This document shows positions 40,702 through 58,389 of a stretch of DNA of 64,000 nt, piece after piece. The stretch covers positions 248,001 through 312,000 of the forward strand of contig NZ_BAABCP010000001.1 of NCBI RefSeq assembly GCF_039539005.1, in the 5' to 3' direction. The notes beneath the pieces were generated by a model that saw only the letters and a list, made by a program, of their open reading frames with translations, had not been told where the DNA came from and made no database searches. The stretch's first letter is position 1. Every line of letters starts with the position of its first letter. Both the position numbers and the translations under genes were made by a program. The stretch is from Microbacterium soli. Its GTDB lineage: Bacteria > Actinomycetota > Actinomycetes > Actinomycetales > Microbacteriaceae.

Positions 40702-41492
40702 CACAGCTCCTTCAGCACGGGTCGTTCGAGGGTGCGGAACACCCAGCTGCCCAATACGAGGACGCCGATGCTCATCAGGGCGCTGATGAGGATCGGGAGG
40801 GTCTGCCACAGCTCGGGGAAGAACGTCGCCCGGTAGAGGGTGAAGATGCCCGAGAGGGGGTTGAACGAGAGGATGGTGTGCAGCGGCTCCGGCAGGTCCT
40901 TGATGCTGTAGATGACCGGTGAGGCATAGAACAGGGCACGGAGTACGAGGGCCGTGGTGCGCTCGAGGTCGGTGAAGAGCACGCACAGCGGCGCGACCAG
41001 CAGCCCGAGGCCGACCAGCAGAGCCGCCTGGAGCAGCACCGCGACGGGGAACCACAGCAGCCCCCAGCCCACGGGCGCGTGGAAGACGATGGCGAACAGG
41101 GCGAGCACCGGCAGCGCGAAGAGGAACTCCAGCCCCTTGCTGAGCACCGTGCGGTTGACCCAGATGGAGCGAGGGATGGCCGTGGATCGCACGAGTTTCG
41201 CGTCGCGCCGGAACGCGCGAGTGAAGTCGGACACCGAGGTGTTGAACCACACCCACGGCAGCAGCCCGCAGATGAGGAACACGATGTACGGGTCGGCCCC
41301 GACGTCCCGCTTGAAGAAGAACGTGAAGACGAACAGGTAGATCACGCTCATCACCAGCGGGTCGAGCACCGACCACAGGTAGCCGAGCCAGCTCGTGGCG
41401 TACCGCACCTTCAGATCGCGGGCCGAGAGCAGCCACAGCGAATGCAGGTACCGTCGGGGCGTGCCCGACGGGGCGACGGCGACACGACTCAC
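40701..41492 (-). CDS. polysaccharide ABC transporter permease (Wzm type)
   Basis: The 263-residue permease has about six membrane helices. 'LWLLSARDLKVRYATSWLG' is the typical N-terminal amphipathic segment of the ABC-2 polysaccharide exporters, followed by 'YLWSVLDPLVMSVIYLFVF'. With Wzt it flips a lipid-linked glycan, probably the galactofuran, outward. The GTG at 41492 is chosen because TAGACT lies seven bases upstream. That hexamer begins with the TAG stop of glf, so promoter and stop codon share bases. The longer upstream frame is inside glf and non-coding. Confidence 0.93.
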   Translation of the reverse strand: MSRVAVAPSGTPRRYLHSLWLLSARDLKVRYATSWLGYLWSVLDPLVMSVIYLFVFTFFFKRDVGADPYIVFLICGLLPWVWFNTSVSDFTRAFRRDAKLVRSTAIPRSIWVNRTVLSKGLEFLFALPVLALFAIVFHAPVGWGLLWFPVAVLLQAALLVGLGLLVAPLCVLFTDLERTTALVLRALFYASPVIYSIKDLPEPLHTILSFNPLSGIFTLYRATFFPELWQTLPILISALMSIGVLVLGSWVFRTLERPVLKEL

Positions 41493-41502
41493 GGTGATGA
41501 GT

Positions 41503-42642
<1,140 letters not shown>

Positions 42643-42694: not shown

Positions 42695-43990
42695 TCAGGA
42701 ACCGGTGCCGACGACGATTCGCGGCGTGCCGCTCCACAGCGCTCCGTCGGTGATGTTGCGGCCGTCCACGAGGAGCTTCACTCCCGGGATCTGCGCCGGC
42801 GTCAGCGCCCGGTAGTCGGCGTGGTCGGTCTGGAGCACGGCCAGCTCGGCGGCTTCGCCGAGCGCGTAGGGCTCGAACCCGTAGCCGCGCAGCTCCTCAT
42901 CGGTGTACAGCGGGTCGTGCACGACGACCTCCGCGCCGCGCTGCCGGAGAGCGGCGACCGTGGGGAACACTCCGGAGAACGCCGTTTCCTTCACGCCGCC
43001 GCGGTACGCGGCCCCCAGCACGACCGCGCGCCGCCCGGTCAGGTCGCCCAGGATGCCCGCTGCCTGCGCGACGAGGCGCTCCGGCATCGACGCGTTGAAG
43101 TTGCGGGCGGTGCGCACGATGTCCGCATCCGGGTCGGTCGAGAGGTACAGGCGGGGGTACACGGGGATGCAGTGCCCGCCGACCGCGATGCCGGGACGGT
43201 GGATGTGACTGTACGGCTGCGAGTTGCAGGCCTCGATGACCTTGTGCACGTCGATGCCGTGCGAGGCGGCGAACACGGCGAACTGGTTGGCCAATCCGAT
43301 GTTCACATCGCGGTAGGTGGTCTCGGCGAGCTTCGCCATCTCGGATGCCTCGGTCGTGCCCAGATCCCAGACGCCGTTCGGACGCGGGAGGTCTGCCCGG
43401 TCGTCGAACTGCAGCACCGCCTCGTAGAACTCCCGGGCACGACGGGTGCCCTCCTCGGAGAGCGCACCGATGAGCTTCGGGTACTTCCGCAGATCTGCGA
43501 AGACGCGCCCGGTGAGCACCCGCTCCGGGGAGTACACGACATGGAAGTCGGTGCCCTCGGTCAGCCCGGATCCCTCCTCCAGCATCGGCTTCCAGCGCGT
43601 GCGGGTCGTTCCGACCGGGAGTGTGGTCTCGTAGGAGATGAGCGTGCCGGGAGTGAGGTGCTCCGCCAACGATTTCGTCGCCGCATCCATGTACTGGAAG
43701 TCCGGCTCCCAGGTCTCGTCGTCCACGAAGACCGGGGCGACCAGCACCACGGCGTCAGCCCCGGGGATGGCCTCCGCATAATCAGTAGTCGCACGCAGTC
43801 GACCACTCGGGATCAGCTGTTCCAGCTTCTCCTGCAGCTCGGCCTCGCCGGGGAAGGGCTCCTGAGCGGCGTTGATCGACTCCACCGTCCTCGGGTTGAC
43901 GTCGACGCCGACCACATCGTGGCCGGAGGACGCGAACTGGACAGCGAGGGGAAGGCCGATCTTTCCGAGGGCCACGACAGCGATACGCAC
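42695..43990 (-). CDS. nucleotide-sugar 6-dehydrogenase (WbpA/WecC type)
   Basis: The 431-residue enzyme belongs to the UDP-glucose/UDP-mannose dehydrogenase superfamily. It has an N-terminal NAD fold 'VVALGKIGLPLAVQFASSG', 'ETTLPVGTTR', 'YSPERVLTG', and the catalytic Cys274 in 'VGGHCIPVYP'. The G-G-H-C-I-P form is typical of UDP-N-acetylglucosamine or -mannosamine 6-dehydrogenases (WbpA, WecC) rather than UDP-glucose dehydrogenases, which have 'GGxCLPKD' as in the gene at 60998. It is therefore the best candidate for oxidation of UDP-GlcNAc to UDP-GlcNAcA, the first step of the amidino-sugar route proposed for this region. The GTG at 43990 is leaderless after TAGAAT; the substrate itself is not proven. 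Confidence 0.9.
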   Translation of the reverse strand: MRIAVVALGKIGLPLAVQFASSGHDVVGVDVNPRTVESINAAQEPFPGEAELQEKLEQLIPSGRLRATTDYAEAIPGADAVVLVAPVFVDDETWEPDFQYMDAATKSLAEHLTPGTLISYETTLPVGTTRTRWKPMLEEGSGLTEGTDFHVVYSPERVLTGRVFADLRKYPKLIGALSEEGTRRAREFYEAVLQFDDRADLPRPNGVWDLGTTEASEMAKLAETTYRDVNIGLANQFAVFAASHGIDVHKVIEACNSQPYSHIHRPGIAVGGHCIPVYPRLYLSTDPDADIVRTARNFNASMPERLVAQAAGILGDLTGRRAVVLGAAYRGGVKETAFSGVFPTVAALRQRGAEVVVHDPLYTDEELRGYGFEPYALGEAAELAVLQTDHADYRALTPAQIPGVKLLVDGRNITDGALWSGTPRIVVGTGS

Positions 43991-43997
43991 GATATCG

Positions 43998-44003
43998 ATT
44001 CTA
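43998..44003 (-). promoter_or_regulatory. -10 hexamer TAGAAT, leaderless start
   Basis: TAGAAT (minus strand) ends seven bases before the GTG at 43990, with no ribosome binding site. Confidence 0.5.
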
Positions 44004-44050
44004 GACCGACCCGGCCTACCCCAAGTTCGTTGGCGGCGCCGCAACCGTCA

Positions 44051-45762
44051 TCAGAGACCGGAACGGATCTGTTCGTCGAGCCCGGTGGCGAGATAGCGGA
44101 CGAACTCCGTGGTGAGGTGGTTCTCATCACGGTAGACGAGCAGGTCGTGCACGATCACCGGACACCGATCCGCCCCGCAGACGTACTTCGTGAAGTCGGC
44201 GTACAGACCGCCTTCCCGAGTGACAGCGGCCCCTTCCGCTTCGGTGAGAGCTGGGTCGAGGGCCCGAGAACGTGGACCATCGCATCTCGTCACGTCCATG
44301 ACGTTGTCCGAGACGAAGGTCGGCGGCGGAGCGGGAAAGCTCGCGGTGTCCGCGATCACGACCCGCATCACGGAGTCGCTAAACCGTGCGCTGCATCCCC
44401 GCCGCCCAGGCCTCGATGCGGGCCGTCTCATGCGACGGGAGCTCGTCGTGAACATAGCTGGAGATGACGACCAGCTTCGGCGGATGCGCTTCCAGTTCAT
44501 CCAGCACGCCCGCTCGCCATCGATCGCAGGACGCACGTTGTTCGACACTGTGACGTCCGCCGCGGGGCAGGAGGACTTCGTGTACGCACGCATCGTCGTG
44601 TCGCCGCGCTTCTCTGCGATGTCGGAGATCGCAGGAAACCACTGCGCCGCATGGGAGTCTCCGAACACCGCGATCGCACCGGAGCCCGCCCCGTAGCGAC
44701 AGTCCTGGACCTGCTCCTGCGCGGTGTCGAGATGGCAGTCGTCCGGATAGAGCACGGGAACGTCCGCGGCGACGTCCGCGAGCGGCGGCCGAAGGTTTCC
44801 CGGCACGAAGGTCGTCTCCTGCGGCGGCGCCTCGGGGTACGCCGGAGCCGCCGCGACCGCCTCACCGGATCCGACGACGCGGACCGCATCTCAGGGCACC
44901 TGCGAAGACGCCCACGAGAACCACCGTGACGATCAGTGTCGCGATCAGCGTCCATCGCGGCCGCCACTCGGTCAGCGCTTTCGGTGCGCATAGCGGCGTC
45001 TCGACGAATCGGTAACGCAGCCATGCCAAGGGGCCGGCCAGGAAGGATCACGCCGACGATCGCCCCGCCATGAGCTGCCACGCACGTGTCGGCAGGCCGA
45101 AGAAGGCGGACGGCTGGTCACTCTGCGTGATGACGATTCCCGCGATGAGGCTCACAGCGGCCAACATCACGATCACTAAGCTCATCCACCCTATGGCGAC
45201 GCCGGAGCAGCAGGTGCAGGGCGAACAGGATCAGCAGCCAGAAGACGTAGAACCGCTCCTCGACTCCGAGCGACCAGTAGTGTTGGTGGGGCGACGGCGA
45301 ATCATCGGCGAGATAGTCCGTGTTCTGAATCGCGAACCAGACGTTCAAGACGTACAGGATCGTTGCGAGTCCGTCGCGAAGGACCCGCTCGACCGCCAAC
45401 GGCTGGTAGCACACGATCGAGTCAACGTCGGTGAACACCGCGACCGTCAGCGCGGCAGGCAGGATGCGACGGACTCGTCTGGCGTAGAAGTCAGCGAATC
45501 CGCCCCTCCCGGTGTGCTCCATTCGCTCAATCAGGTGCGTCGAGAGCAGGAATCCGGAGATCACGAAGAACACGTCGACGCACACGTACCCGCCGGTGAT
45601 CACGGGTAGGCCGTCGTGGTAGAGCAGAACCACGCCGACCGCGATCGCTCTGAACCCTGAATGTCTGCGCGGAACTTCGACTTCGATGCTGTCTATGCTC
45701 GTGTGATCTGGAGGGTCACGCGGGTTCCTCGACAGCGGCCTGGTTCCTCGACGGCGGCGCAC
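44051..45762 (-). pseudogene. decayed acyltransferase-3/SGNH protein
   Basis: Read on the minus strand this is one OafA-type gene broken into pieces. The first part (45762 to about 45200) has the acyltransferase-3 start 'FRAIAVGVVLLYHDG', 'GGYVCVDVFFVISGFLL' and 'HQHYWSLGVEERFYVFW'. The frame then changes to read 'LPTRAWQLMAG' (near 45090), again for 'GVILPGRPL' (near 45040), again for 'LAWLRYRFVETPL' (near 45020) and again after an in-frame stop near 44880. The SGNH part starts 'VFGDSHAAQWFPAISDIAE'. Its middle, 'LDELEAHPPKLVVISSYVH' (about 44510-44390), is in yet another frame before the original frame resumes to the end. At least six frame changes are needed, while both neighbours are intact. 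Decay is more likely than sequencing error, but read support should be checked. Confidence 0.88.
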
Positions 45763-45858
45763 ATGGTGTCATCCTAATGACCCGTTGCTGGGTGACCGTC
45801 GGGGACCGACCGGGTTCTAGGCGGATGACGCACAGGCCGGATCGGGCAGAATCGACAT

Positions 45859-46776
45859 ATGACTTCTCTAGGCGACGCACGAGTCGCGATCGTGAGTCGC
45901 ATCTTCGCGCCCGAACCTGCCGCTGCCGCGCCGCGGCTCGCCGCTGTCGCGCAAGCCCTCACAGACGCGGGAGCCGAGGTCACTGTTATCACCACGACTG
46001 TGCCCGGGATGACGGGAGGGCCGGAGACCGATGATAGCGCGCCGTATGACGTGCGGTGCGTCCCCGCGTTGCGGGACAGGGACGGCTACATCCGTGGCTA
46101 CGTGAACTACATGAGCTTCGACATTCCCGCCTTCTTCCGGCTCGTGTTCAGCAAGAGATTCGACGCCGTCATCGTCGAGCCGCCGCCCACCACCGGCGTC
46201 TTCATCCGAGCAGCGGCGTGGCTGCGCAGAACGCCGTACCTCTTCTACGCTGCCGACGTGTGGTCCGAGGCCGCAGATGTCGCCGGCACACCGAAGGTCA
46301 TGGTGTCCGTCGTCCGCGCGTTCGAAGATTGGGCGTATCGAGGCGCGGCACGCGTGCTGTCTATGTCCGCGTCGGTCTCGCGTCGCGTGTCCCGGTCGGC
46401 CTCCGGGGCACGGGTGGAGACTGTGGGGAACGGTTACGACTCCACCGTCTTCAGACCGGACGGGCCTCGGATCGAGCGTTCTCCGTGTCCGCTCTACGCC
46501 GGGACGGCTTCGGAGGTTCACGGAGCCGGCGTCTTCGTCGATGCCATGCCGCTCCTGCTCACGAAGCATCCGGAGGACAAGCTGGTCTTCATCGGGCAGG
46601 GAGCCGACTGGAGCGTCGGAGAGGACGTCTCTGACATCGCAGCAGCGATGATCGAGGTATTCTCCGCTCAGGGGTCGTCGGCGCGCCGCTTGGAACTCGC
46701 GGAGCGCACCCGCCAGCGCCTCTCGCTTCAGTCCGTCGGAGCGCGAGTCGCCGATGCTGTCGGAGCAGTCATCTGA
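45859..46776 (+). CDS. GT4-type glycosyltransferase with internal in-frame deletion
   Basis: The 305-residue protein is a paralogue of the 389-residue glycosyltransferase at 56445. N-terminal domains align throughout ('VAIVSRIFAPEPAAAAPRL', 'YFEPPPTT'-like 'VEPPPTTGVF', 'YLFYAADVWSEAA'). After 'LVFIGQGADWS' (residues 242-252) the sequence jumps to the equivalent of paralogue residue 339 ('VGEDVSDIAAAMIEV'). About 85 residues of the C-terminal Rossmann domain are missing, including the donor-nucleotide-binding loop. The reading frame is kept, so the protein can be made but is unlikely to be active. It opens the plus-strand operon; its stop overlaps the next start (TGATG). CAGAAT lies six bases before the ATG. 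Confidence 0.8.
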   Translation: MTSLGDARVAIVSRIFAPEPAAAAPRLAAVAQALTDAGAEVTVITTTVPGMTGGPETDDSAPYDVRCVPALRDRDGYIRGYVNYMSFDIPAFFRLVFSKRFDAVIVEPPPTTGVFIRAAAWLRRTPYLFYAADVWSEAADVAGTPKVMVSVVRAFEDWAYRGAARVLSMSASVSRRVSRSASGARVETVGNGYDSTVFRPDGPRIERSPCPLYAGTASEVHGAGVFVDAMPLLLTKHPEDKLVFIGQGADWSVGEDVSDIAAAMIEVFSAQGSSARRLELAERTRQRLSLQSVGARVADAVGAVI

Positions 46777-48005
46777 TGAACGCGGATCTGCATCTCGAAC
46801 ACACACCAGAAAGACGAGGCGAGCACTCCGTGCCCCACAAGCCAGTGATCCTCTGCATCTCGCTCTCCCCCATCCGCAGGGATGCGCGAGTGCTTCGCCA
46901 GATCGGCCTGCTCCGTGAGTATGGAGACGTCGTCACGGTGGGGTTCGGCCCACGTCCCGACGGCGTCTCCGAGCATCTCGAAGTGCCCGCCGACCTGGCG
47001 ACTCTTCCGCAGACCGTGCCCGGTGTCATCGGACTCGCGCTGAGACGATTCCGCTCCGTCGAGCTCGCGGCACCGGCCGTGGCCTGGGCACGCGACGCGC
47101 TCCGAGGCCGGAGGTTCGACCTCGTCGTGGCGAATGAGGCACGGGTGCTCGCGCTGGCGAGCCGCGTCGCAGGCGACGCGCCTGTGTGGGCTGATATGCA
47201 CGAGTGGGCCCCCGAGGAGCGCACCCACATCCTGTCCTGGAGACTCCTCGTGGCGCCCTTCATGACCTACCTGTGCCGCCGGTACCTTCCGGGGTCTGCG
47301 CTCGTCACGACAGTGGGCGATTCCATCGCCACGCTGTACAGGAAGACCTTCGGCGTGAAAGCCCGTCTGATGCGCAACGCCGGTCCGTACCGGCCCCTGG
47401 AGGCGTCACGGACCGAGGAGGGCCGCATCCGACTCGTGCACAGCGGAGCCGCCATCCACGGACGCAAGCTCGAGCTGATGATCGAGGCCATGGCTCTGCT
47501 CGACGAGCGATTCACCCTGGATCTGTACCTGGTGCCCGGCGGCGATGACGGCGCGTATCTGGCGGAGCTGCGCAGGTTGGCGGCGCACGACTCGCGCATC
47601 ACGTTCCACGCCCCTGTGGCGCCCGAGGCGCTGCCTTCGACCCTCAATGCCTACGACGTCGGCGTGTTCTGGATCCCACCCGCTCATACCAACGCGCGAC
47701 TGACGCTGCCGAACAAGTTCTTCGACTACGTGCAGGCCAGGCTCCTTGTAGCGGTCGGGCCCTCCCCCGAGATGGAGCCCCTCATCGCGGAACACGGACT
47801 CGGTGTCGTGAGCACGGGCTTCAGCGTCAAGGAGTGTGCGAGATCCTTGGCCGCACTCACGACAGACCAAATCGTCCGCGCCAAAGCCGCATCGGATGCC
47901 GCAGCAGCAGTGTTGAATTTCGAACACGAGAAGGAGCGGATGCGGCCTCAGCTCGGCGCGCTCATCGAGGGCTCGTCACCGACCCCGAACGGAGCGACGC
48001 GATGA
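46776..48005 (+). CDS. GT4-type glycosyltransferase
   Basis: A 409-residue GT-B glycosyltransferase. The start has 'KPVILCISLSPIRRDARVLRQI', the acceptor half has 'WADMHEWAPEERTHILSW', and the donor half has 'RLVHSGAAIHGRKLELMIEAM' and 'LPNKFFDYVQARLLVAVGPSPEM', where the last segment carries the Glu that contacts the nucleotide sugar. It is a paralogue of the gene at 52443 with the same segments. The substrate is unknown; its operon suggests it adds one sugar of the amidino-sugar glycan. The ATG at 46776 overlaps the previous stop, and an in-frame GTG about 18 codons later is also possible. The stop overlaps the ABC transporter start. Confidence 0.88.
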   Translation: MNADLHLEHTPERRGEHSVPHKPVILCISLSPIRRDARVLRQIGLLREYGDVVTVGFGPRPDGVSEHLEVPADLATLPQTVPGVIGLALRRFRSVELAAPAVAWARDALRGRRFDLVVANEARVLALASRVAGDAPVWADMHEWAPEERTHILSWRLLVAPFMTYLCRRYLPGSALVTTVGDSIATLYRKTFGVKARLMRNAGPYRPLEASRTEEGRIRLVHSGAAIHGRKLELMIEAMALLDERFTLDLYLVPGGDDGAYLAELRRLAAHDSRITFHAPVAPEALPSTLNAYDVGVFWIPPAHTNARLTLPNKFFDYVQARLLVAVGPSPEMEPLIAEHGLGVVSTGFSVKECARSLAALTTDQIVRAKAASDAAAAVLNFEHEKERMRPQLGALIEGSSPTPNGATR

Positions 48006-49810
48006 AAACCGTCTTCACCCTCTACCGTGATCTCCTTTCGGTCCTCCCCTCGGATGCTCGGAGGTTCCTGAACTTCTACTCCGCGCTACTGGCATCTCTC
48101 GCACTGTTCGACGCGGCAGCCCTGGGTCTGCTTGCACTCGTGATCGGCCCCTTGTCCGTCGGCTCCCCTGTGACCCTGCCTATTTTCGGCGAACTCGATC
48201 AGTTCGGGGTGGTGCTCGCGATCCTCGCGATCTGTGCGCTCATGATCGGCAAGGGAATGGCGTCGACCCTGATCATGCGTTGGGGATCGCAGCGCATCGC
48301 TGTGTATGAGGTGGCACTGGGTGATCGCCTGTTCCGCGCGTATCTCGGTGCGTCCTGGCAGGAGCGTCTCCGTAAGAACTCCTCGGACATGCTGAGGTTC
48401 ACGGACAGCGGTGTCGACGCCGCCATCAACTCATTCATCCGTCCCGGCGCGACTCTCCTCGGCGAGGTGGTGAGCCTGATCGCGATCGTGGCCGCTCTGG
48501 CGGTCATCCAGCCCCTCATCGCTTTAATCAGCCTCGTGTACCTGGTGGCGCTCGGCGCGGTGCTCTATTTCTGGATCGCTCGGCATTCCCGTCGAGCCGG
48601 AGAGATCAATCTTGAGGCGACCATCCGTACCTCGCGCCTCATCCTCGAGGTGATGTCCGCACTCAAGGAGGTGACGCTGCGCCGCAAGGAGCCGGAGGTC
48701 GCCGATGTCGTCCTCACGAGCCGGCGCCGCAGCGCACGAGCCCGAGCGAATATCTACTTTCTCGGACAGGTACCCCGCTACGTGCTGGAATCCGGACTCA
48801 TCGGCGGATTCGTCGTCGTCGGAGGAGCCGGTTATCTGCTGGGCGGCCCGCAGCAGGCCTTCACGGCAGTGGCGCTCTTCGGATTGGCCGGGTTCCGCAT
48901 GGCTCCGTCGGTCATCCGTTTCCAGACCATCGTGTCGCAGATGCTCGCGGCGTCGAGTTACCCGCTCCGCGTCATCGAAGAGCTGCGGGCGGCCGAGACG
49001 CGCTCGAACGAATTCGCCGCGCGCCCAGAGCGCTCGTTGCCCGCGGCACCGTCCGTACTCACGTTCCGAAACGTCACGTTCGCATACGGCGACGGTGAAC
49101 CAGCCGTCCGCGACGTGAGCCTGAGCATCCCGATCGGCTCGTCGGTGGCGTTCGTCGGTGCCTCGGGGTCGGGAAAGTCCACGATGGTGGATTTGCTCCT
49201 CGGGCTTCTCGAGCCCCAGAGCGGACGGATCGAGATCGATGGCGTCCCGCTGTCCGAAGCCCGGAGCGCGTGGCGGGCGCTGACGGCGTACGTCCCGCAG
49301 GAGGTCGCCGTCTTCGACGCCACCGTCGCGCAGAACGTCGCCCTCACCTGGTCCGATGACGTCGACCGCCAGCGCGTGAAATCCGCGCTGATCCAGGCTC
49401 AGATCTGGGATCTCGTCGCCGCTCGCGAGGGTGGCATGGATGCCGGCGTCGGCGAGCGGGGTCTCGCACTCTCCGGCGGACAGCGTCAGCGGCTGGGCAT
49501 CGCACGAGCGCTGTACACGGACCCCAAGGTGTTGGTCATGGACGAGGCGACCAGTGCACTTGACACCCAGACCGAATCTGACGTCACGTCGTCGATAGCG
49601 GCCGCAACCGGCGAGAGGACTCTCGTGACCGTCGCGCACCGGCTCTCAACGGTCAAGGACGCCGACACGGTCTTCTTCATGAGCAATGGTGAACTCGTCT
49701 ACGCGGGTCCGTTCGAGGATGTCGTCGCCAATGTACCCGATTTCGCGCGTCAGGCCGCACTCGCGGGCCTCAGCCCGGACTCCAACGGATCCCCAGATTC
49801 GGAAGTGTAA
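48002..49810 (+). CDS. ABC transporter, fused permease/ATPase (MsbA/PglK-like)
   Basis: The 602-residue half-transporter has six membrane helices (about 20-330) and an ATPase domain. Walker A is 'GASGSGKST' near 385, the signature 'LSGGQRQRLGIARAL' near 490, Walker B 'KVLVMDEATSALD', and the H-loop 'TVAHRLSTV'. Fused exporters of this type include the lipid flippase MsbA and the lipid-linked oligosaccharide flippase PglK. Its place between glycosyltransferase and sugar-modification genes makes a PglK-like flippase role likely. The ATG at 48002 overlaps the previous stop. Confidence 0.9.
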   Translation: MKTVFTLYRDLLSVLPSDARRFLNFYSALLASLALFDAAALGLLALVIGPLSVGSPVTLPIFGELDQFGVVLAILAICALMIGKGMASTLIMRWGSQRIAVYEVALGDRLFRAYLGASWQERLRKNSSDMLRFTDSGVDAAINSFIRPGATLLGEVVSLIAIVAALAVIQPLIALISLVYLVALGAVLYFWIARHSRRAGEINLEATIRTSRLILEVMSALKEVTLRRKEPEVADVVLTSRRRSARARANIYFLGQVPRYVLESGLIGGFVVVGGAGYLLGGPQQAFTAVALFGLAGFRMAPSVIRFQTIVSQMLAASSYPLRVIEELRAAETRSNEFAARPERSLPAAPSVLTFRNVTFAYGDGEPAVRDVSLSIPIGSSVAFVGASGSGKSTMVDLLLGLLEPQSGRIEIDGVPLSEARSAWRALTAYVPQEVAVFDATVAQNVALTWSDDVDRQRVKSALIQAQIWDLVAAREGGMDAGVGERGLALSGGQRQRLGIARALYTDPKVLVMDEATSALDTQTESDVTSSIAAATGERTLVTVAHRLSTVKDADTVFFMSNGELVYAGPFEDVVANVPDFARQAALAGLSPDSNGSPDSEV

Positions 49811-49881
49811 CATTGGTTGGTTCGGTGCCGACCGGGCGAATTGAGCGACCGCGCAGCTTACGCAGTACAAGGAGTGATCAG

Positions 49882-51063
49882 GTGGACAAGCCTGTCGATG
49901 CCGTTGACCGCCACTCGGACGCAGCCACGTACCAGAGGTGCGTACGGACGGTCATGGACACGACTGACCCGGAGATCTGGTTCGACGAGCAGGGCGTCTC
50001 GTCACACGCGCTGCGCTTCGACGCCACGATGAAGGACCAGGTCCGAGCGGCGCAGGCCGGGGAGCTGATACCTGAGCTCAACGATCTGATCGCACAGATC
50101 AAGAAAGACGGCGAAGGCAAGCCCTACGACTGCATCGTCGGTGTCTCGGGCGGAGTCGACAGCACGTATCTCATCCTGCAGGCGGTCAAGCTGGGACTGC
50201 GGCCGCTCGCCGTTCATTTCGACAGTGGATGGAACTCCGAACTCGCCGTCGACAACATCCACAACATCGTCACGCGCCTGGATCTCGACCTCTACACGCA
50301 TGTCATCGACTGGCGGGAGATGCGCGACCTGCAGCTCGCGTTCTTCAAGGCCTCGCTCGCGAACTGCGACGTGCCCACCGATCACGCATTCGGCTGGGTA
50401 GCCTATCAGCAGGCCGTCAAGTACGGCGTCAAGTACATCCTGTCGGGCGCCAATCTCGCGAGTGAGTCGATCCTCCCGCAGTCCTGGGGCTACAACGCGT
50501 CGGACGCGAAGCACGTCAAGGCCGTCCACAAGCAATTCGGGACGGGAAAGCTCAAGACCTACCCCCTGATGGGGCTCTTCAAGCGCCATATCTGGTACCC
50601 GTACGCGCGCGGGGTGAAGACCGTCAAGCCGCTGAACCTCATGCCCTACCGCTACGACCAGGCCAAGCAGGCGATCACCGACGAGGTCGGTTGGCGCGAC
50701 TACGGCGGAAAGCACTACGAATCCGTGTTCACGCGCTACTTCCAGGGTTACTACTTGCCCAAGAAGTTCGGCTTCGACAAGCGCCTCGCCCACTACTCGT
50801 CCCTCATCCTCTCCGAGCAGATGACCCGCGATGAGGCGCTGAACCTCCTCAAGACCGAGAACTACCCGGAGAGCCTGCGCAAGCAGGATCACGAGTTCAT
50901 CGCGAAGAAGCTCGGGCTCACGGTCTCCGAGCTCGACGCAATCTACGATCTGCCCCTTCGCGATTACACGGATTACCCCAACGCGAAACGTCAATGGGAT
51001 GTCGCGATGGCGGCTGCGCGAGTGCCAGTCAAGATCCTCAAGAAGCTCGGGCTCCGACCATGA
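49882..51063 (+). CDS. N-acetyl sugar amidotransferase (WbpG-like)
   Basis: The 393-residue enzyme belongs to the family that turns an N-acetyl group of a nucleotide sugar into an acetamidino group, using ammonia made by partner HisH and conducted by HisF. The ATP-pyrophosphatase loop is 'GVSGGVDSTYL' (about 86-96). 'HFDSGWNSELAVDNI' and 'ILSGANLASESILP' are family segments. Near residue 18 the usual C-x2-C...C-x2-C zinc knuckle is reduced: 'RCVRTVMDTTDPEI' keeps one Cys, and the later pair reads 'GVSSHA' instead of 'GVCNHC'. The GTG at 49882 is chosen for its AAGGAG ribosome binding site at seven bases. The stop overlaps the hisH start. Confidence 0.9.
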   Translation: MDKPVDAVDRHSDAATYQRCVRTVMDTTDPEIWFDEQGVSSHALRFDATMKDQVRAAQAGELIPELNDLIAQIKKDGEGKPYDCIVGVSGGVDSTYLILQAVKLGLRPLAVHFDSGWNSELAVDNIHNIVTRLDLDLYTHVIDWREMRDLQLAFFKASLANCDVPTDHAFGWVAYQQAVKYGVKYILSGANLASESILPQSWGYNASDAKHVKAVHKQFGTGKLKTYPLMGLFKRHIWYPYARGVKTVKPLNLMPYRYDQAKQAITDEVGWRDYGGKHYESVFTRYFQGYYLPKKFGFDKRLAHYSSLILSEQMTRDEALNLLKTENYPESLRKQDHEFIAKKLGLTVSELDAIYDLPLRDYTDYPNAKRQWDVAMAAARVPVKILKKLGLRP

Positions 51064-51665
51064 GCGTCGGCGTTCTGGAGTATGGACTGGGGAACTTCGG
51101 CTCAGTCATGAACATGCTCAAGCGACTGGACGCCGACCCTTGTATCGTTCGCACGCCAGAGGACGTCGCCCAGAGCGAACGCCTGTTGTTGCCGGGAGTC
51201 GGCGCATTCGACCGCGGCATGTTGCTGCTGGAAACGGCCGGGCTCGATGTGGCGATCCGCGAGTTCGCCGCCGGCGGTCGGCCGGTCCTGGGAATCTGCC
51301 TCGGAATGCAACTGCTCCTGGATTCGAGCGAGGAGGGTGCCTCAGCCGGCCTCGGGCTCGTTCCCGGCCGCTGTATGCGCTTCTCAGAGGGGCGCGGGCT
51401 ACGGGTCCCGCACATGGGATGGAATCGTGTGACGGCCAAATCTCAGGACCCGCTGTTCGCGACGGTCCCCGAGGACAACAGGTTCTATTTCGTTCATTCC
51501 TACCACGCGGTCCCCGCAGACCCTTCGCATACCCTCGCCACGACGAACTACGGCGATGATTTCGTCTCGATGGTGCGTCGTGACAACGTCATCGGCGCTC
51601 AGTTCCACCCAGAGAAGAGTCACCTGTTCGGCCTCGAGATGCTACGGAGCTTCAGCACGCTATGA
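51060..51665 (+). CDS. hisH: HisH-like glutamine amidotransferase subunit
   Basis: The 201-residue class I glutaminase has the full triad: Cys80 in 'VLGICLGMQLLLD', and His183 and Glu185 in 'GAQFHPEKS'. It also has 'YGLGNFGSVMNMLKR' and 'PGVGAFDRGM' of the HisH family. HisH releases ammonia from glutamine for the HisF synthase. Here it is sandwiched between an N-acetyl sugar amidotransferase and a HisF paralogue with overlapping ATGA junctions, and no other histidine gene is near. The likely job is ammonia supply for sugar amidination, as for the hisH2 genes of Pseudomonas and Campylobacter glycan loci. A chromosomal hisH for histidine is expected elsewhere. Confidence 0.93.
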   Translation: MSVGVLEYGLGNFGSVMNMLKRLDADPCIVRTPEDVAQSERLLLPGVGAFDRGMLLLETAGLDVAIREFAAGGRPVLGICLGMQLLLDSSEEGASAGLGLVPGRCMRFSEGRGLRVPHMGWNRVTAKSQDPLFATVPEDNRFYFVHSYHAVPADPSHTLATTNYGDDFVSMVRRDNVIGAQFHPEKSHLFGLEMLRSFSTL

Positions 51666-52423
51666 GCCTGTTCCCCCGTCTGATCCCCGTGCTGCTCGTC
51701 AGTGACGGCTACCTTGTCAAGCCCGTCCGCTTCCAGGGAGACACGTACATCGGCGACCCCATCAACGCCGTGCGCATCTTCAATGAGAAGCAGGTGGACG
51801 AGCTTGTCATCTGCGACATCGATGCGACCCCGAAGCGGACCGGGGTGAACTTCCAGCTGATCGAGGAGATCGCGAACGAGGCGTTCATGCCCGTGGGCTA
51901 CGGCGGCGGCGTCGCGAGCGTGGACGATGCCCGGCGAATCACAGGTATCGGCATCGAGAAGGTGATCCTGAACTCGGCTGCTGTCACAGAGCCTGATGTC
52001 GTCCGCGGGATCTCCGACGCCCTCGGCGCTTCCAGCACCGTGGTGAGCATCGATGCGAAGAAGCGGCTCACCGGAGGTTGGGAGACATACAGCGAGCGAG
52101 GATCGCGGAAGGCGGGCATGACGCCGGCCGACGCCGCTCGGCGTGCCCAGGACCTCGGCGCGGGAGAGGTGATCGCCTCGTCCATCGACCGCGAGGGGAC
52201 CTTCTCCGGGTACGACACCAAGCTGATCCAGACCGTCACGTCCGCCGTGTCGATTCCGGTGATCGCTCTCGGGGGCGCCCGCGATATGAGCGACTTCCAT
52301 CAGGCGCTCGCTGCCGGTGCTTCGGGGGCCGCGGCGGGCAGCACATTCGTCATGACAGGGAAGCACCACGCGGTCCTCATCAACTATCCCGCACCGTCCG
52401 AGGTGCGTACCCTCGCTTCGTGA
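51662..52423 (+). CDS. hisF: HisF-like synthase subunit (amidination type)
   Basis: The 253-residue (beta-alpha)8 barrel matches HisF, with 'GYGGGVASVDDARR', 'VSIDAKKRLTGG' (Asp131) and 'IALGGARDMSDFHQAL'. In histidine-making HisF the first catalytic acid is Asp11 in the motif C-L-D-V. The same place here reads 'IPVLLVSDGYLVK', with Leu12 instead of Asp. That substitution is typical of HisF paralogues in amidotransferase loci and argues against IGP synthesis. Its likely role is to hold HisH and carry ammonia to the sugar amidotransferase. The ATG overlaps the hisH stop. The C-terminal end is 20 bases before the next glycosyltransferase. Confidence 0.92.
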   Translation: MSLFPRLIPVLLVSDGYLVKPVRFQGDTYIGDPINAVRIFNEKQVDELVICDIDATPKRTGVNFQLIEEIANEAFMPVGYGGGVASVDDARRITGIGIEKVILNSAAVTEPDVVRGISDALGASSTVVSIDAKKRLTGGWETYSERGSRKAGMTPADAARRAQDLGAGEVIASSIDREGTFSGYDTKLIQTVTSAVSIPVIALGGARDMSDFHQALAAGASGAAAGSTFVMTGKHHAVLINYPAPSEVRTLAS

Positions 52424-52442
52424 AACTGGAGACCTGACCATC

Positions 52443-53594
52443 GTGACCGATCCTCGCCCTCGCATCCTCGTCCTGACCCATACCCCGATCGATCGTGAGC
52501 CGCGCGCTCTCAAGCAGATCAATTACTTCGCCCAGCGGGCCGATGTGACGACCGCGGGCTTCGGTTCGGCCCCTGTGGAGGGCGTGCCCCACATCGAACT
52601 CGAATCCAGCCCCGCGACCTCCGGGCTGCTCCGGATCCCGGGTTTGTACACGTTGCTCCTCGGGTTGCGGCAGTACCGTCTCTTCGACAAGGTGAAGCCT
52701 CGCAACCGTGCGGCTCTCCCCCTGCTGCAGAACGGCGAGTGGGATGTGGTCATCGCGCACGATGTGCACACTCTGGCCCTCGCGCAGCAGCTCACCGCGA
52801 CCAAGGGGATCCTCCTCGACCTGCACGAGTATGCGCCTCGGCAGAACGAGAACTCGTTCCTGTGGCGGCTGCTCATTGCGCCGTACTTCCGATGGATCTG
52901 CAGGACGCAGGTGCCCAACGCCGCGGGCGTGACGACCGTTGGTCAGGGCATCGTGGACGAGTACCGACGTCAGTTCGGTTTCGAATCGACGTTGGTCGTC
53001 AATGCGACGCCCTACCAGGAGCTCACGCCCGGACAGGTCGGCTCGACGATCCGGATGGTGCACTCTGGCATTCCCGCGCCGGCGCGCAAGCTCGAGGCGA
53101 TGATCGAAGCCGTGAAGCTGACGCGCACCGACGTGACCCTCGACCTCTACCTGATCAAGGACGGCTCCGCCTACTACGACGAGCTGGTGGCACTCGCAGG
53201 CGACGACCCGCGCATATTCTTCCGGGATCCTGTCCCCTACGCCGAGCTGGTTCAGACGCTGAACCAGTACGACGTCGGGCTCAGTGTGATCGCACCGACG
53301 ACTTTCAATCTGGCGTGGTGCCTGCCGAACAAGTTCTTCGACTTCATCCAAGCCCGTCTGGGCGTGATCGTGGGACCCTCACCCGAGATGGTGGCCTTTG
53401 TCGAGCGTTACGGAATCGGTGAGGTGGCCGAGGGCTTCGACGGCGCCGCCCTCGCCAAGGTCCTCGATGGTCTCACCCCCGAAACGGTCAGGAATTGGAA
53501 GGAGCAGTCGCACGAGAATGCGCACGCTCTCTCCAGCGAGGAGCAGGTGAAGATCTGGGGCGAGGTCGTCGATGGGATTCTTGCTCGCGCCTGA
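52443..53594 (+). CDS. GT4-type glycosyltransferase
   Basis: The 383-residue GT-B enzyme starts 'PRILVLTHTPIDREPRALKQ', has the acceptor-side 'LDLHEYAPRQNENSFLWRLL' and the donor-side 'HSGIPAPARKLEAMIEAV' and 'LPNKFFDFIQARLGVIVGP' with 'SPEM' after it. It is a paralogue of the gene at 46776; the two probably act at consecutive steps or on different acceptors. The GTG at 52443 is used; the upstream spacing to hisF is 19 bases and a GGAGA element (52428-52432) could be the ribosome binding site. It is the last gene of the plus operon before the hairpin. Confidence 0.9.
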   Translation: MTDPRPRILVLTHTPIDREPRALKQINYFAQRADVTTAGFGSAPVEGVPHIELESSPATSGLLRIPGLYTLLLGLRQYRLFDKVKPRNRAALPLLQNGEWDVVIAHDVHTLALAQQLTATKGILLDLHEYAPRQNENSFLWRLLIAPYFRWICRTQVPNAAGVTTVGQGIVDEYRRQFGFESTLVVNATPYQELTPGQVGSTIRMVHSGIPAPARKLEAMIEAVKLTRTDVTLDLYLIKDGSAYYDELVALAGDDPRIFFRDPVPYAELVQTLNQYDVGLSVIAPTTFNLAWCLPNKFFDFIQARLGVIVGPSPEMVAFVERYGIGEVAEGFDGAALAKVLDGLTPETVRNWKEQSHENAHALSSEEQVKIWGEVVDGILARA

Positions 53595-53615
53595 GTCCTG
53601 CGACGACTCGAACAG

Positions 53616-53664
53616 AAAGAGTAAGGGCCGTGATCACTGATCGGTGATCACGGCCCTACTCTTT
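53616..53664. terminator. 21-bp hairpin between converging glycan operons
   Basis: AAAGAGTAAGGGCCGTGAT and the following CAC (53616-53637) pair with 53644-53664, with one bulged A and a six-base loop TGATCG. A-rich and T-rich ends on each side give it intrinsic-terminator form in both directions. It separates the stop at 53594 (plus) from the stop at 53672 (minus). Confidence 0.9.
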
Positions 53665-53671
53665 CCGAAGG

Positions 53672-54661
53672 TCAGAGGCCAACCGCATCCCAGTCCCGCG
53701 CGGAGTCGAGGGCGGCCTCGACAACAGCGAGCGTACGCTGTCCTTGCTCCATGGTGACCAGATCGGTCTTCTCTCCGAGGACCGCGTCGCGGAACGCCTC
53801 GTGCTCGACCTTGAGGGGCTCGCGCTTGGGGAAGGCGTACCGGGTGACGTCCCCTTCGGAGACGCCACGGAAGGTGGACACAGACTCCCATTCCAGAGGG
53901 ATGGTCCCGTTGGCATAGAAGGTCAGATCGCCCGTGGAGGTGTCGGCGACGAATGCTCCCCTCTCCCCCGTGACGACCGTCAGCCGCTCCTTCATCGGGC
54001 TGAGCCAGTTCACGATGTTGTTCACGATCACCCCGGATTCGGTGCGTCCGGTGATGATGATCATGTCCTCATGCTCCCGGCCCGACTTGAACGCCGTCTG
54101 CGCGAACACGAGCTCGTAGTCGGACTGCACCACCCACGCGGTCAGGTCCACGTCATGCGACGCGAGGTCCTTCGCCACTCCGACATCCGCGATCCGGGAC
54201 GGGAACGGGCCCTGACGCCGCGTTGCCACCTGGTACACCGCGCCCAGCTCGCCTGCGGCGAGGCGGCGACGCAGCTCCTGCAGCGCCGGGTTGAACCGCT
54301 CAATGTGACCGACACCTCCGACCAGCCCCGCTCCGGCGAAGGCCTCGACCATGCGCTGGCCCGCTTCGAGGCTATGCGCGATTGGCTTCTCCACAAGGGT
54401 GTGCACGCCCGCGGCCGCGAGCTTTAGCGCCGCATCCTCGTGGAAGCGCGTCGGGACGGCGACGACGGCGATGTCGATGCCCGCGGAGATGAGCGCGTCG
54501 ATGTCGGGCAGCACCTGCAAGCCCCCTGCGACGCCGTGCGGGTCACCGCCGGGGTCGGCGATGGCGACCAGTTCCACACCCTCGACCTCGCGCAGCACGC
54601 GCGCATGATGGCGACCCATCATGCCGACGCCGAGAAGCCCGGCACGCAGCACGTCCGCCAT
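53672..54661 (-). CDS. Gfo/Idh/MocA oxidoreductase (WbpB/WlbA-like)
   Basis: The 329-residue NAD-dependent oxidoreductase starts 'RAGLLGVGMMGRHHARVL', has the conserved 'HTLVEKPIAHSLEAG' (Glu91-Lys92-Pro93) and 'GHIERFNPALQELRRRL'. The latter, G-x-I-E-R-F-N-P, is typical of UDP-GlcNAcA 3-dehydrogenases such as WlbA and WbpB, where it lies near the substrate. By family it would oxidise C3 of UDP-GlcNAc uronate to the 3-keto sugar, the substrate for the aminotransferase encoded just upstream (ATGA overlap at 54661). It is the last gene of the minus operon. Specific substrate is inferred from context. Confidence 0.92.
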   Translation of the reverse strand: MADVLRAGLLGVGMMGRHHARVLREVEGVELVAIADPGGDPHGVAGGLQVLPDIDALISAGIDIAVVAVPTRFHEDAALKLAAAGVHTLVEKPIAHSLEAGQRMVEAFAGAGLVGGVGHIERFNPALQELRRRLAAGELGAVYQVATRRQGPFPSRIADVGVAKDLASHDVDLTAWVVQSDYELVFAQTAFKSGREHEDMIIITGRTESGVIVNNIVNWLSPMKERLTVVTGERGAFVADTSTGDLTFYANGTIPLEWESVSTFRGVSEGDVTRYAFPKREPLKVEHEAFRDAVLGEKTDLVTMEQGQRTLAVVEAALDSARDWDAVGL

Positions 54662-55758
54662 CAGGCACCCGCTCCCACAACGGTGTTCACAGCGGTCACG
54701 ATGCGCTCCAGGTCGTCCGCGCTCAGCGACGGGTGCACGGGGAGCGAGAGCACCTCGCGCGCGGCGCGCTCGGTCTCGGGGAGGTCGAGTCCCGCCGCGT
54801 ACGGCGCCAGAGACTGTAGGCGGTGGTTCGGGATCGGATAGTACACACCCGCGCCGACCTGATGCTCCTCCTTCAGCGCCCTCACGAACCCGTCCCGATC
54901 CTCGGGGACCCGGATCGTGTACTGGTGGTACACGTGCACGGCGCCCTCCGCGACCGGCGGCACGGTCACACCGCGCAGGTGGGCGTCGAGGAACGCCGCG
55001 TTCCGCTGCCTGGTGCGGGTCCATGCGTCGACCTTGGTCAGCTGCACACGGCCGATCGCCGCATGGATGTCGGTCATGCGCGCGTTGAAGCCGACGACCT
55101 CGTTCTCGTACTGACGTTCCATGCCCTGGTTGCGCAGCAACTTCACTCGACGCGCGATCTCCGCCGTCGCGGTGGTGACCATGCCGCCTTCGCCACTGGT
55201 CATGTTCTTTGTCGGGTAGAGGCTGAACATCGCGAACTCGCCGAAGGATCCCACCGGGCGACCGTCCAGCGAGGCGCCGTGCGCCTGCGCTGCATCCTCG
55301 TAGAGCGCCACGCTCTTCTCGGCTGCGAGCTTCTCCAGTTCGCGCATTCGCGCCGGGTGTCCGTATAGGTGAACCGGCAGGATGCCCTTCGTCTTCGGAG
55401 TGATCGCCGCGGCGACGGCCTCGGGATCAAGCGTGAACGTCGCCGGCTCGATGTCGACGAACACCGGCGTCGCCCCCGTCAGCGCGACCGAATTGCCCGT
55501 GGCCGCGAAGGTGAACGACGGCACGATGATCTCATCGCCGGGGCCGACGCCGGTAGCGAGCAGCCCCAGGTGCAGCCCCGCGGTCCCGGAGTTCACCGCG
55601 ACAGCTGGGCGGCCGGGCACGAAGTGCTCGGCGAACTCCGTCTCGAATGCGGCAACCTCGGGCCCCTGCGCGACCATGCCGCTGCGCATCACACGGTCGA
55701 CAGCCGCGCGCTCCTCCTCACCGATGATCGGCTTCGCCGGGGCAATGAACTCGCTCAC
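54661..55758 (-). CDS. DegT/DnrJ/EryC1/StrS aminotransferase (WbpE-like)
   Basis: A 365-residue PLP enzyme that puts an amino group on a keto sugar nucleotide. 'AVNSGTAGLHLGLLA', 'YEDAAQAHGAS' with the PLP Asp, and Lys184 in 'FSLYPTKNMTSGEGG' are the family landmarks. Next to the 3-dehydrogenase and the N-acetyltransferase it most likely aminates the 3-keto uronate to UDP-GlcNAc(3N)A, like WbpE and WlbC. The GTG at 55758 is chosen for its AAGGAGGT ribosome binding site and the GTGA overlap with the previous gene. The upstream in-frame start lies inside that gene. Confidence 0.94.
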   Translation of the reverse strand: MSEFIAPAKPIIGEEERAAVDRVMRSGMVAQGPEVAAFETEFAEHFVPGRPAVAVNSGTAGLHLGLLATGVGPGDEIIVPSFTFAATGNSVALTGATPVFVDIEPATFTLDPEAVAAAITPKTKGILPVHLYGHPARMRELEKLAAEKSVALYEDAAQAHGASLDGRPVGSFGEFAMFSLYPTKNMTSGEGGMVTTATAEIARRVKLLRNQGMERQYENEVVGFNARMTDIHAAIGRVQLTKVDAWTRTRQRNAAFLDAHLRGVTVPPVAEGAVHVYHQYTIRVPEDRDGFVRALKEEHQVGAGVYYPIPNHRLQSLAPYAAGLDLPETERAAREVLSLPVHPSLSADDLERIVTAVNTVVGAGA

Positions 55759-56366
55759 TTGACCTCCTTGGTCAGGGTTCCATTGGATTCGATGTACCGG
55801 TCGCCCGAGGCGGGACAGATCCACGTTCCGTCACTGTCGCCGGCAACCAACGGAACACCATGCTCCCCCACCCACCCGATCCTGTGGGCAGGCACCCCAG
55901 CGACAAGAGCGTAGGCGGGGACGTCGACGACCACCACGGCACCCGCTGCGACGGTGGCCCAGGCCCCGATCGTGACAGGTGCAACGCAGGTCGCGCGTGC
56001 GCCGATGGCCGCACCGCGTTCGATCGTCACTCCGACTGGTTCCCAGTCGTGAGCGCTCTTGAGGCTGCCGTCGGCGTTGATGGCGCGCGGATAGGTGTCA
56101 TTGGTGAGCACGACGGCGGGCCCGACGAACACGCCGTCGGCGAGGACGGCCGGCTCATAGACGAGCGCATAGTTCTGCACCTTGCAGTTGTCGCCCATCC
56201 GCACACCTGTACCGATATAGGCACCGCGGCCCACGATGCAGTTCTCCCCCATACGCACACCTTCTCGCACCTGGGCAAGATGCCAGATCGACGAGCCGTC
56301 GCCGATCTGCGCGTCACCGGACACGTCTGCGGACTCGACGATCCGCACGCGATTGGAATTGGTCAC
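55755..56366 (-). CDS. left-handed beta-helix N-acetyltransferase (WbpD/WlbB-like)
   Basis: The 203-residue protein is a hexapeptide-repeat acyltransferase, with repeats from about 'ADVSGDAQIGDGSSIWHLAQ' to 'APVTIGAWATVAAGAVV'. 'KVQNYALVYEPAVLADGVFV' and 'VLTNDTYPRAINADG' match the subgroup (WbpD, WlbB) that acetylates the 3-amino group of UDP-GlcNAc(3N)A. The Asn-Asp in 'LTNDTYPR' is the conserved catalytic neighbourhood of this subgroup. The GTG at 56366 follows AAGGAG at five bases. It is coupled by GTGA to the DegT gene. A 78-base gap separates it from the upstream glycosyltransferase. Confidence 0.93.
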   Translation of the reverse strand: MTNSNRVRIVESADVSGDAQIGDGSSIWHLAQVREGVRMGENCIVGRGAYIGTGVRMGDNCKVQNYALVYEPAVLADGVFVGPAVVLTNDTYPRAINADGSLKSAHDWEPVGVTIERGAAIGARATCVAPVTIGAWATVAAGAVVVVDVPAYALVAGVPAHRIGWVGEHGVPLVAGDSDGTWICPASGDRYIESNGTLTKEVK

Positions 56367-56444: not shown

Positions 56445-57614
56445 CTAACCGCCGAGCACGACGTCCGCGGAACGACCAGCCACAGCACTCGCCGAGATGT
56501 GCTCCTGCGCCCAGGAAACCAGCCGGTCAGCATCCACACGCGGCTTCGCCTGCAGCATCTCGTCCAGCGCGTCGGCCAGTTCAGTCTCGTCGTACGCCAC
56601 GCCGCGCCCCAGACCGTTCTGCTCCACCATGGACCGCACGGGATTCGGACCCGCGTAGGCGACCGGAGTGCCCACGGCGACGGACGCGTAGAGCTTCGTG
56701 GGGACGGCGAAGTCATACCCCTGCCCGGGAACCAGCGACGCGATGCTCACCCGAGCGCCGCGCAGCCATGCTGCGGCTTCCGGCGACGGCACGGTATCAA
56801 CGAACCTGATCCTCGGCGAGAGTCCGGACTCGGCGGCAGCCGCGCGCATGCCCTCCCAGGACGACCCCTGCCCCACGAAGGCGGCTGTGAGCCCAGGGCG
56901 CCGGCGGAGCACCTCAACGACTGAGCGGACGGCGAGTTCCGCGCCGTGCCATTCGCTGGCGGATCCGACATAGACGATGTCCGCAGGCTCACGCACAGTC
57001 GGGCCCGAAGGTGAGAACAGATCGAGATCGACCCCGTGACCCACGACATGAGGCGACACGCCCGGGGCGAGCTCGGCCACACGGTGTGAGACGCCGTCGG
57101 TGACGGCGAGGACCGATCGCGCCCCTCGCAGCGCGAACGCTTCCATCCACCGGACGACGCCGAGGATCAGACCGGACGCCCCGGTGGCCTGCGCGGCATC
57201 CGACCAGATGTCGGCCGCGTAATATACGTACGGTCTGCGGATCACCGCGCAGACCAGCCGCGTGAACAGCCCGGTCGTGGGCGGTGGTTCGCACAGATAC
57301 ACATCGGCCCGGGGTCCGAACAGGATCCGCAGAGCCAGCGGTACATCGAAACTCAGGTACGGAAGGTATCCGCGCACATAGCCCGAGCGGTCCCGAAGGA
57401 CAGGCCAGCGCCGGACCTCCACGCCGTCAGGATCGGAGATCGAATCGCGACCCGGAGGCCGCGTCGTCAGCACCCGCACCCGTGCCCCACGCTCTCGAAG
57501 CCGGACGGCGAGCGCACTCAGACGCAGGGACGCCGCCGCGGGCTCCGGAGAGAAGATCCGACTCACGATCACGACACGCGCGCTCTTACCGAAAGCCCGC
57601 TTCTCCTGCGCCAT
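56445..57614 (-). CDS. GT4-type glycosyltransferase (intact paralogue)
   Basis: The 389-residue GT-B enzyme has 'VVIVSRIFSPEPAAASLRL' at the start, 'CEPPPTTGLF' and 'YVYYAADIWSDAA' in the acceptor half, and 'VYVGSASEWHGAEL', 'FVGQGSSWEGM' and 'PTKLYASVAVGTPVAYAG' in the donor half. It is the complete version of the deleted gene at 45859. The start has AAGGAG at six bases before the ATG at 57614. It is the first gene of the minus operon carrying the WbpD/E/B-like enzymes, so it may transfer the sugar they make. Acceptor and donor are not proven. Confidence 0.9.
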   Translation of the reverse strand: MAQEKRAFGKSARVVIVSRIFSPEPAAASLRLSALAVRLRERGARVRVLTTRPPGRDSISDPDGVEVRRWPVLRDRSGYVRGYLPYLSFDVPLALRILFGPRADVYLCEPPPTTGLFTRLVCAVIRRPYVYYAADIWSDAAQATGASGLILGVVRWMEAFALRGARSVLAVTDGVSHRVAELAPGVSPHVVGHGVDLDLFSPSGPTVREPADIVYVGSASEWHGAELAVRSVVEVLRRRPGLTAAFVGQGSSWEGMRAAAAESGLSPRIRFVDTVPSPEAAAWLRGARVSIASLVPGQGYDFAVPTKLYASVAVGTPVAYAGPNPVRSMVEQNGLGRGVAYDETELADALDEMLQAKPRVDADRLVSWAQEHISASAVAGRSADVVLGG

Positions 57615-58386: not shown

Positions 58387-58389
58387 CGC

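Follow-up and report, generated by a model that had tools for sequence, protein, structure and literature searches.

A uronic acid is the defining component of teichuronic acids, which are anionic polymers of the cell wall; antibacterial umbrella toxins use one such polymer as their receptor (PMC13274773). In Streptomyces, 2,3-diacetamido-uronic acids that depend on the utr genes have been demonstrated by nuclear magnetic resonance (NMR). The utr polymer of S. griseus contains both ManNAc3NAcA and GlcNAc3NAcA, the cluster of S. antibioticus, without utrE, utrF and utrH, gives a GlcNAc3NAcA homo-oligomer, and utr gene content is considerably variable (PMC13274773). Cutibacterium acnes also has ManNAc3NAcA (PMC6598116). 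In the Pseudomonas route, uridine diphosphate N-acetylglucosamine (UDP-GlcNAc) is oxidised at C6 and then at C3, aminated, acetylated and lastly epimerised at C2 (PMC10622841). The further conversion of an acetamido into an acetamidino group has been described mainly in Gram-negative surface sugars. Here we analyse a candidate acetamidino-uronic acid locus of the Gram-positive Microbacterium soli. It lies in a 64 kb stretch (C1:248001-312000, 69% G+C; hereafter the window) of a 3.12 Mb genome that is 99.97% complete.

The initial annotation had assigned seven genes of the window to the Pseudomonas Wbp route. All seven reading frames were open where it had placed them. The products of three of them, WbpG, HisH2 and HisF2, scored over curated profile cut-offs, and the other four fell into the expected superfamilies (TIGR03026, Gfo/Idh, DegT and hexapeptide acetyltransferase), none of them reaching an NCBIfam equivalog cut-off. 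The assignment held in part: an acetamidino module does lie beside a probable precursor set for a 2,3-diacetamido-uronic acid, but the precursor genes are actinobacterial rather than of the Pseudomonas type, and no 2-epimerase was found. We consider it probable that the locus combines an actinobacterial UDP-GlcNAc3NAcA pathway with amidination by WbpG, HisH2 and HisF2, and would place an acetamidino residue in a teichuronic-acid-like wall glycan. The sequences themselves give the identity of the genes, their lineage, their genomic pairing and the lack of a recognised 2-epimerase. The predicted reactions and the amidination trio are those of the P. aeruginosa O-antigen cluster (WbpA, B, E, D, I, G, HisH2 and HisF2). 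Unlike that cluster, the window belongs to a Gram-positive host, its precursor enzymes are of another lineage (25-42% identity to proteobacterial cluster members), and no WbpI-type 2-epimerase was found in its genome. Unlike the utr system, it adds WbpG, HisH2 and HisF2 (the string 'amidino' is absent from the main text of PMC13274773), its glycosyltransferases are of the GT4 type, and an ABC transporter is its probable flippase.

The four precursor genes are all on the minus strand. They encode a UDP-sugar 6-dehydrogenase at 42695..43990 (UtrD-like, functional counterpart of WbpA; TIGR03026 300.5 bits, over the cut-off), a Gfo/Idh 3-dehydrogenase at 53672..54661 (UtrB-like, functional counterpart of WbpB; NF040723 200 bits, under the cut-off of 450), a 3-aminotransferase at 54661..55758 (UtrA-like, counterpart of WbpE; Pfam DegT 406 bits) and a hexapeptide 3-N-acetyltransferase at 55755..56366, the start codon of which is uncertain (UtrJ-like, counterpart of WbpD). 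The best solved relative of the acetyltransferase was 3mqg, a lipopolysaccharide biosynthesis acetyltransferase (130.6 bits). The aminotransferase matched WbpE in the PDB with 219 bits, yet six other distinct sequences scored higher.

These enzymes were compared with four Streptomyces-type loci (L182-L185, from four genomes of one genus, 7-9 Mb in size, which we infer to be Streptomyces) and with ten proteobacterial loci (L018-L027); P. aeruginosa WbpB and the published Utr sequences were not among the compared sequences. The four enzymes were 58-68% identical to those of the Streptomyces-type loci. For the 6-dehydrogenase the identity was 62-68%, against 27-31% in the proteobacterial loci (found in five of the ten); for the 3-dehydrogenase, 58-62% against 25-29% (seven of ten); for the aminotransferase, 59-61% against 33-36% (eight of ten, with a second copy in L023 at 32%). 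The acetyltransferase was 63-64% identical to its relatives in L182, L184 and L185 and 38-42% identical to those in seven of the ten proteobacterial loci; in L183 no relative of it turned up within the 20 kb. In a tree of the 3-dehydrogenase, built from rows of 180-460 aa with each genome entered once, seven proteobacterial rows were split from 22 actinobacterial rows at 100/100 by a very long branch. On the identities and this tree we reject a close kinship with the proteobacterial Wbp-type clusters, and by these comparisons the precursor genes are a separate actinobacterial lineage. In L183, the 3- and 6-dehydrogenases are separated by a glycosyltransferase of family GT2 with a TarS linker, and the opposite strand nearby carries a 2-epimerase and an acyltransferase. 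This arrangement matches the one published for utrA-D, utrH and utrI (PMC13274773). The TarS linker itself (PF22181) had no match in the genome of the window, nor in any control genome.

The segment 53672-56366 is also of mosaic ancestry. Its 3-dehydrogenase shares 91% identity with those of G106 and L011 but 54% with that of L009, whereas the identity to L009 is 89% for its aminotransferase and 84% for its acetyltransferase.

The amidination trio is on the plus strand. WbpG (49882..51063) scored 274.8 bits with TIGR03573 (cut-off 203.2), which places it in the N-acetyl sugar amidotransferase (NASAT) or WbuX family, and its PP-loop SGGXDS is intact as SGGVDS. A single-sequence search of the PDB with WbpG gave no match at 1e-3; with a profile built from 29 WbpG sequences the top match was the solved NASAT 8WEX (E = 6e-11). 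The PP-loop and many other positions were invariant in the 29-sequence alignment, which included the window. A grouping of WbpG with unrelated PP-loop enzymes, set in advance as the outcome that would speak against the annotation, was thus not what we found: profile and tree both placed it inside WbuX. Its closest named relatives were from Microbacterium sp. CBA3102 (80%) and Cryobacterium sp. BB307 (70%), and in the tree the window paired with CBA3102 (100/99). The activity of WbpG on the N-acetyl group of a sugar is a prediction from its sequence.

HisH2 (51060..51665) scored 221.8 bits with TIGR01855 (cut-off 105.4). Its GICLGMQ and FHPEKS align with the canonical HisH of the genome, and we take them to be the catalytic motifs with Cys and with His and Glu (Cys-His-Glu). 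HisF2 (51662..52423), the putative ammonia-channel barrel, scored 313.2 bits with NF038364, the profile of the AglZ/HisF2 acetamidino modification proteins, narrowly above the cut-off of 310; the host and the predicted glycan differ from those of AglZ. A second HisF (C2:132034, 341.5 bits) and a second HisH (C1:2357362, 185 bits) elsewhere in the genome are both over their cut-offs. The copies in the window are therefore paralogues, as had been proposed, and cannot be the only HisH and HisF of the genome. The Asp of CLDV in the canonical HisF of the genome is replaced by Leu in HisF2 and is likewise absent in all 13 other aligned HisF2 rows, so that HisF2 is unlikely, judged from this residue, to carry out the histidine reaction. 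The G+C content was 63.1% for the trio, 67.7% for the 3-dehydrogenase, aminotransferase and acetyltransferase genes and 69.0% for the window. The lower value is in keeping with a later arrival of the trio. Its WbpG is closest to proteobacterial ones, which would suggest a transfer from proteobacteria, the root of the tree being arbitrary.

The NASAT family is characterised by a zinc-binding tetracysteine, CXXCXn[GN]XCXXC (PMC10607449). The WbpG of the window shares the PP-loop of LpNASAT (8WEX; PMC10607449), but its zinc site is reduced to one cysteine (C-T-S-A). We built a WbpG tree of 92 rows, omitting L084, duplicate entries of a genome and copies of 350 aa or less, one of which is a broken copy from Homoserinibacter. 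The 16 Microbacteriaceae-type rows formed one clade (100/99), which grouped (100/94) with six proteobacterial rows that all keep four cysteines. Within the clade, all four cysteines are kept by G200 and G064, and a single one by the remaining 14 rows (99/93). This pattern implies that the cysteines were probably lost once within the clade. Such a loss is not unique to this branch: among the 70 other relatives, 46 keep all four cysteines, two are without one, one was not aligned there, and 21, from Bacteroidota, Planctomycetota and Sphingopyxis, are without two or more. By the tetracysteine, the WbpG of the window thus belongs to a cysteine-poor branch and is not a canonical NASAT member. Cysteine-poor amidotransferases of this kind are a natural test of the purpose of the zinc site described for the family.

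WbuX-family genes are sparse: among 398 sampled Microbacteriaceae genomes, 17 had them (14 over the cut-off). In a sample of 396 genomes of the phylum, a match to the 3-dehydrogenase at 1e-50 or better was found in at least 20, a lower bound because the five best candidates per genome were scored, and a WbuX match at 1e-30 or better was found in nine. Besides the window, WbpG and the precursor genes recur in 12 loci, 11 of them complete and one cut by a contig edge. An orthologue of the 3-dehydrogenase lay on the contig of WbpG in 12 of the 13 loci of the WbpG clade, in one case (G027) with an internal stop. The thirteenth locus, L013, is broken off by the contig edge; its genome has a 72-residue match at a contig end, which is probably the 3-dehydrogenase gene. 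Within the stretches examined, the 6-dehydrogenase was present in 12 of the 13 loci, and HisH and HisF in 11. Three other Microbacteriaceae genomes (G104, G277 and G294) have WbuX genes outside the type of the clade and are without a close 3-dehydrogenase (best 8e-21), and in two more (G258 and G310) a close 3-dehydrogenase is present but all the WbuX genes are divergent. It seems that the precursor set often occurs without amidination, and that this type of amidination is seen with the precursor set.

L013 is filed under a metagenome-assembled genome of Mesorhizobium. As its WbpG fell inside the Microbacteriaceae clade and one of its genes, a fusion gene described below, is 99% identical to that of G075, it is probably Microbacteriaceae DNA and a binning error. 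In G258, which is of the genus of the window, two very divergent WbuX genes (L190 and L192) lie outside the Microbacteriaceae clade, each with HisH and HisF nearby. Four of the 13 loci (L010, L014, L015 and L017) have two WbpG copies and a single HisH2-HisF2 pair, one copy in L015 being in broken frames. Two copies per pair suggest two sites or substrates of amidination.

No UDP-GlcNAc 2-epimerase was found in the genome with either TIGR00236 or PF02350, each of which matched in 11 of 14 control genomes. A manno-configured product was therefore rejected, and the sugar is predicted to be gluco-configured. Within the stretches examined, a 2-epimerase was present in four of the 13 loci of the WbpG clade (L011, L016, L017 and L194). 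In G236 it is far from WbpG, and none was found in seven other clade genomes besides that of the window, including the metagenome-assembled genome of L013. Some relatives are thus predicted to make the manno-configured sugar; as in the utr system, the presence of the 2-epimerase varies among relatives.

In the proposed pathway, UDP-GlcNAc would be oxidised at C6 by the dehydrogenase at 42695 and at C3 by that at 53672. Transamination at C3 (54661) and N-acetylation (55755) would then give UDP-2,3-diacetamido-2,3-dideoxy-D-glucuronic acid. HisH2 would release ammonia from glutamine, HisF2 would channel it, and the PP-loop amidotransferase (49882) would use ATP to exchange the oxygen of one acetamido group for NH. 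The resulting acetamidino group is probably at C3, by analogy with P. aeruginosa (PMC10607449). The neighbouring glycosyltransferases would incorporate the residue, which bears both a carboxylate and an amidinium, into a repeat, and the ABC transporter would flip this repeat for a teichuronic-acid-like wall glycan. In this scheme we infer the substrates, the order of steps, the position of the amidine, the carrier (UDP- or lipid-linked), and the nature and attachment of the polymer.

Several observations weigh against this reading. In the phylum sample, a close 3-dehydrogenase and WbuX occurred together only in the genome of the window. This speaks for a reading in which the precursor genes make UDP-GlcNAc3NAcA and the trio modifies a different N-acetyl sugar within that glycan, and so do G258 and G310, where the close 3-dehydrogenase is accompanied by divergent WbuX genes alone. 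A WbuX enzyme of E. coli O145 amidinates FucNAc, according to the introduction of PMC10607449. However, the two gene sets share a contig in 12 of the 13 clade loci, and among the nearest proteobacterial loci WbpE-like and epimerase-like genes were present in all six, with B- and D-like genes also nearby in five. We consider another substrate for the trio unlikely, if the least unlikely of the alternatives. The product might also differ from the one proposed. The 6-dehydrogenase has UDP-ManNAc dehydrogenases as its nearest relatives, both in the named equivalogs and in the solved structures, and the best named profile of the 3-dehydrogenase is an archaeal UDP-GlcNAc 3-dehydrogenase; these matches would fit a different order of steps or a non-uronic product. 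In the latter case the 3-dehydrogenase, aminotransferase and acetyltransferase would act on UDP-GlcNAc in a GnnA-like manner to give GlcNAc3NAc, and the 6-dehydrogenase would serve another sugar. The best solved relative of the 3-dehydrogenase is 7bvj, which we take to be GnnA, and G106 (same genus) and G079 (same family) have the other three precursor genes and no 6-dehydrogenase in the 20 kb examined. Against a non-uronic product, the 6-dehydrogenase accompanies WbpG in nearly all clade loci, and each of the four Streptomyces-type loci, of which one is utr-like, has a relative of it (62-68% identity) next to the 3-dehydrogenase and aminotransferase. We give such a product a low probability. 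It is chiefly L183 that ties the window to utr, since the TarS linker was found there alone; in L182, L184 and L185, GT4-type genes without it lie between the dehydrogenases. A Streptomyces plasmid (L214) carries a related aminotransferase/3-dehydrogenase pair near a phosphopantetheine-binding protein, the other two genes not being in view, so that the pair may also serve other pathways.

The remaining objections concern decay. WbpG, as described above, has lost three of its zinc ligands. The GT4-type glycosyltransferase at 45859..46776 (plus strand) has an internal gap of roughly 115 aa relative to L009, L012 and the window gene at 56445-57614; its C-terminal domain is largely gone, Pfam detected the N-terminal domain only, and the enzyme is probably inactive. 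At 44051-45762 on the minus strand there is a remnant of an acyltransferase-3/SGNH gene in separate frames, the acyltransferase domain of which had no recognisable C-terminal half. The truncated glycosyltransferase and the broken acyltransferase imply that decay has set in at part of the locus, and amidination might be inactive as well. However, the PP-loop is among the many invariant positions of the 29-sequence alignment, and the one-cysteine form occurs in 14 tree rows from several genera with frames of at least 350 aa. We regard an inactive amidination step as the least probable of these alternatives. The full-length paralogue at 56445 might stand in for the truncated glycosyltransferase, and in strain CBA3102 the counterpart of the truncated gene has its full length.

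The initial annotation held that an apparently dedicated gene set of this kind in a Microbacteriaceae-like genome looked new. Because they have been demonstrated by NMR in Streptomyces (PMC13274773), and are also reported from C. acnes (PMC6598116), 2,3-diacetamido-uronic acids are not new to actinobacteria. The set is likewise not confined to this Microbacteriaceae genome, as the 12 other loci show. No acetamidino sugar of a Gram-positive bacterium was found among the matches listed in the open-licence literature, subscription journals being largely outside its scope. What remains new, to this extent, is the amidination module on an actinobacterial diacetamido-uronic pathway and its cysteine-poor enzyme. 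If the proposed pathway is true, acetamidino sugars extend to Gram-positive walls. An amidine on a uronic acid would cancel or invert its charge. Toxin and phage recognition, the binding of metals and the response to cationic peptides could change as a result. Tentatively, and with more doubt than confidence, we suggest that the Microbacteriaceae polymer is zwitterionic and teichuronic-acid-like, the amidinium made by the amidotransferase without a zinc site balancing the carboxylate, and that in relatives where two WbpG copies share one HisH2-HisF2 pair the residues are amidinated twice and carry a net positive charge.

The genes form two convergent groups. A palindromic, terminator-like hairpin (53624..53657, reported on the minus strand; one found, where shuffled sequences gave a mean of 0.1) lies at their meeting point, which bears out the two operons converging on a terminator. 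On the plus strand, the truncated glycosyltransferase is followed by a second glycosyltransferase (46776..48005), the ABC transporter (48002..49810), WbpG, HisH2, HisF2 and a third glycosyltransferase (52443..53594). The second and third were assigned from the initial annotation and from their resemblance to each other; neither has an NCBIfam match, and their identities in L009 are 65% and 58%. The transporter is PglK/MsbA-like (MsbA 232.7 and PglK 216.5 bits, both far under the equivalog cut-offs) and is a probable flippase. In the order of transcription, the minus strand carries a GT4-type glycosyltransferase of full length with Pfam N- and C-terminal domains (56445..57614), the acetyltransferase, the aminotransferase and the 3-dehydrogenase. 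The three glycosyltransferases described earlier are thus present, but one is truncated and a fourth heads the minus-strand genes. The 6-dehydrogenase is about 10 kb from the 3-dehydrogenase and adjoins a UDP-galactopyranose mutase gene.

Further wall-glycan genes flank the cluster at 37667-42639 and 57688-62299. They encode a GlfT1-like galactofuranosyltransferase, a TagH-like ABC ATPase, the UDP-galactopyranose mutase, a PpgS-like polyprenyl-phosphate GalNAc synthase and a TuaD-like UDP-glucose dehydrogenase, and are under curated cut-offs except for the mutase and the general dehydrogenase family.

In several of the genomes we also found a conserved fusion protein of about 616 aa, in which a class-II glutaminase domain (beginning VCGIFGF; Pfam GATase_6/7) is joined to a WbuX-like domain. 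It occurs in L106:1381-3228 (G075), L116 (G236), L117 (G032), L118/L120 (G386), L107 (G311), L108 (G219) and L013:2904-4751. The two that were scanned scored 131-138 bits with TIGR03573, below the cut-off, and CxxC..CxxC and SGGRDS were intact in both sequences read. The fusion gene adjoins a 6-dehydrogenase gene in L199 and L211 and lies within a few kb of one in L202 and L203. Its architecture implies that no HisH or HisF is needed, and the protein may be a self-contained sugar amidotransferase.

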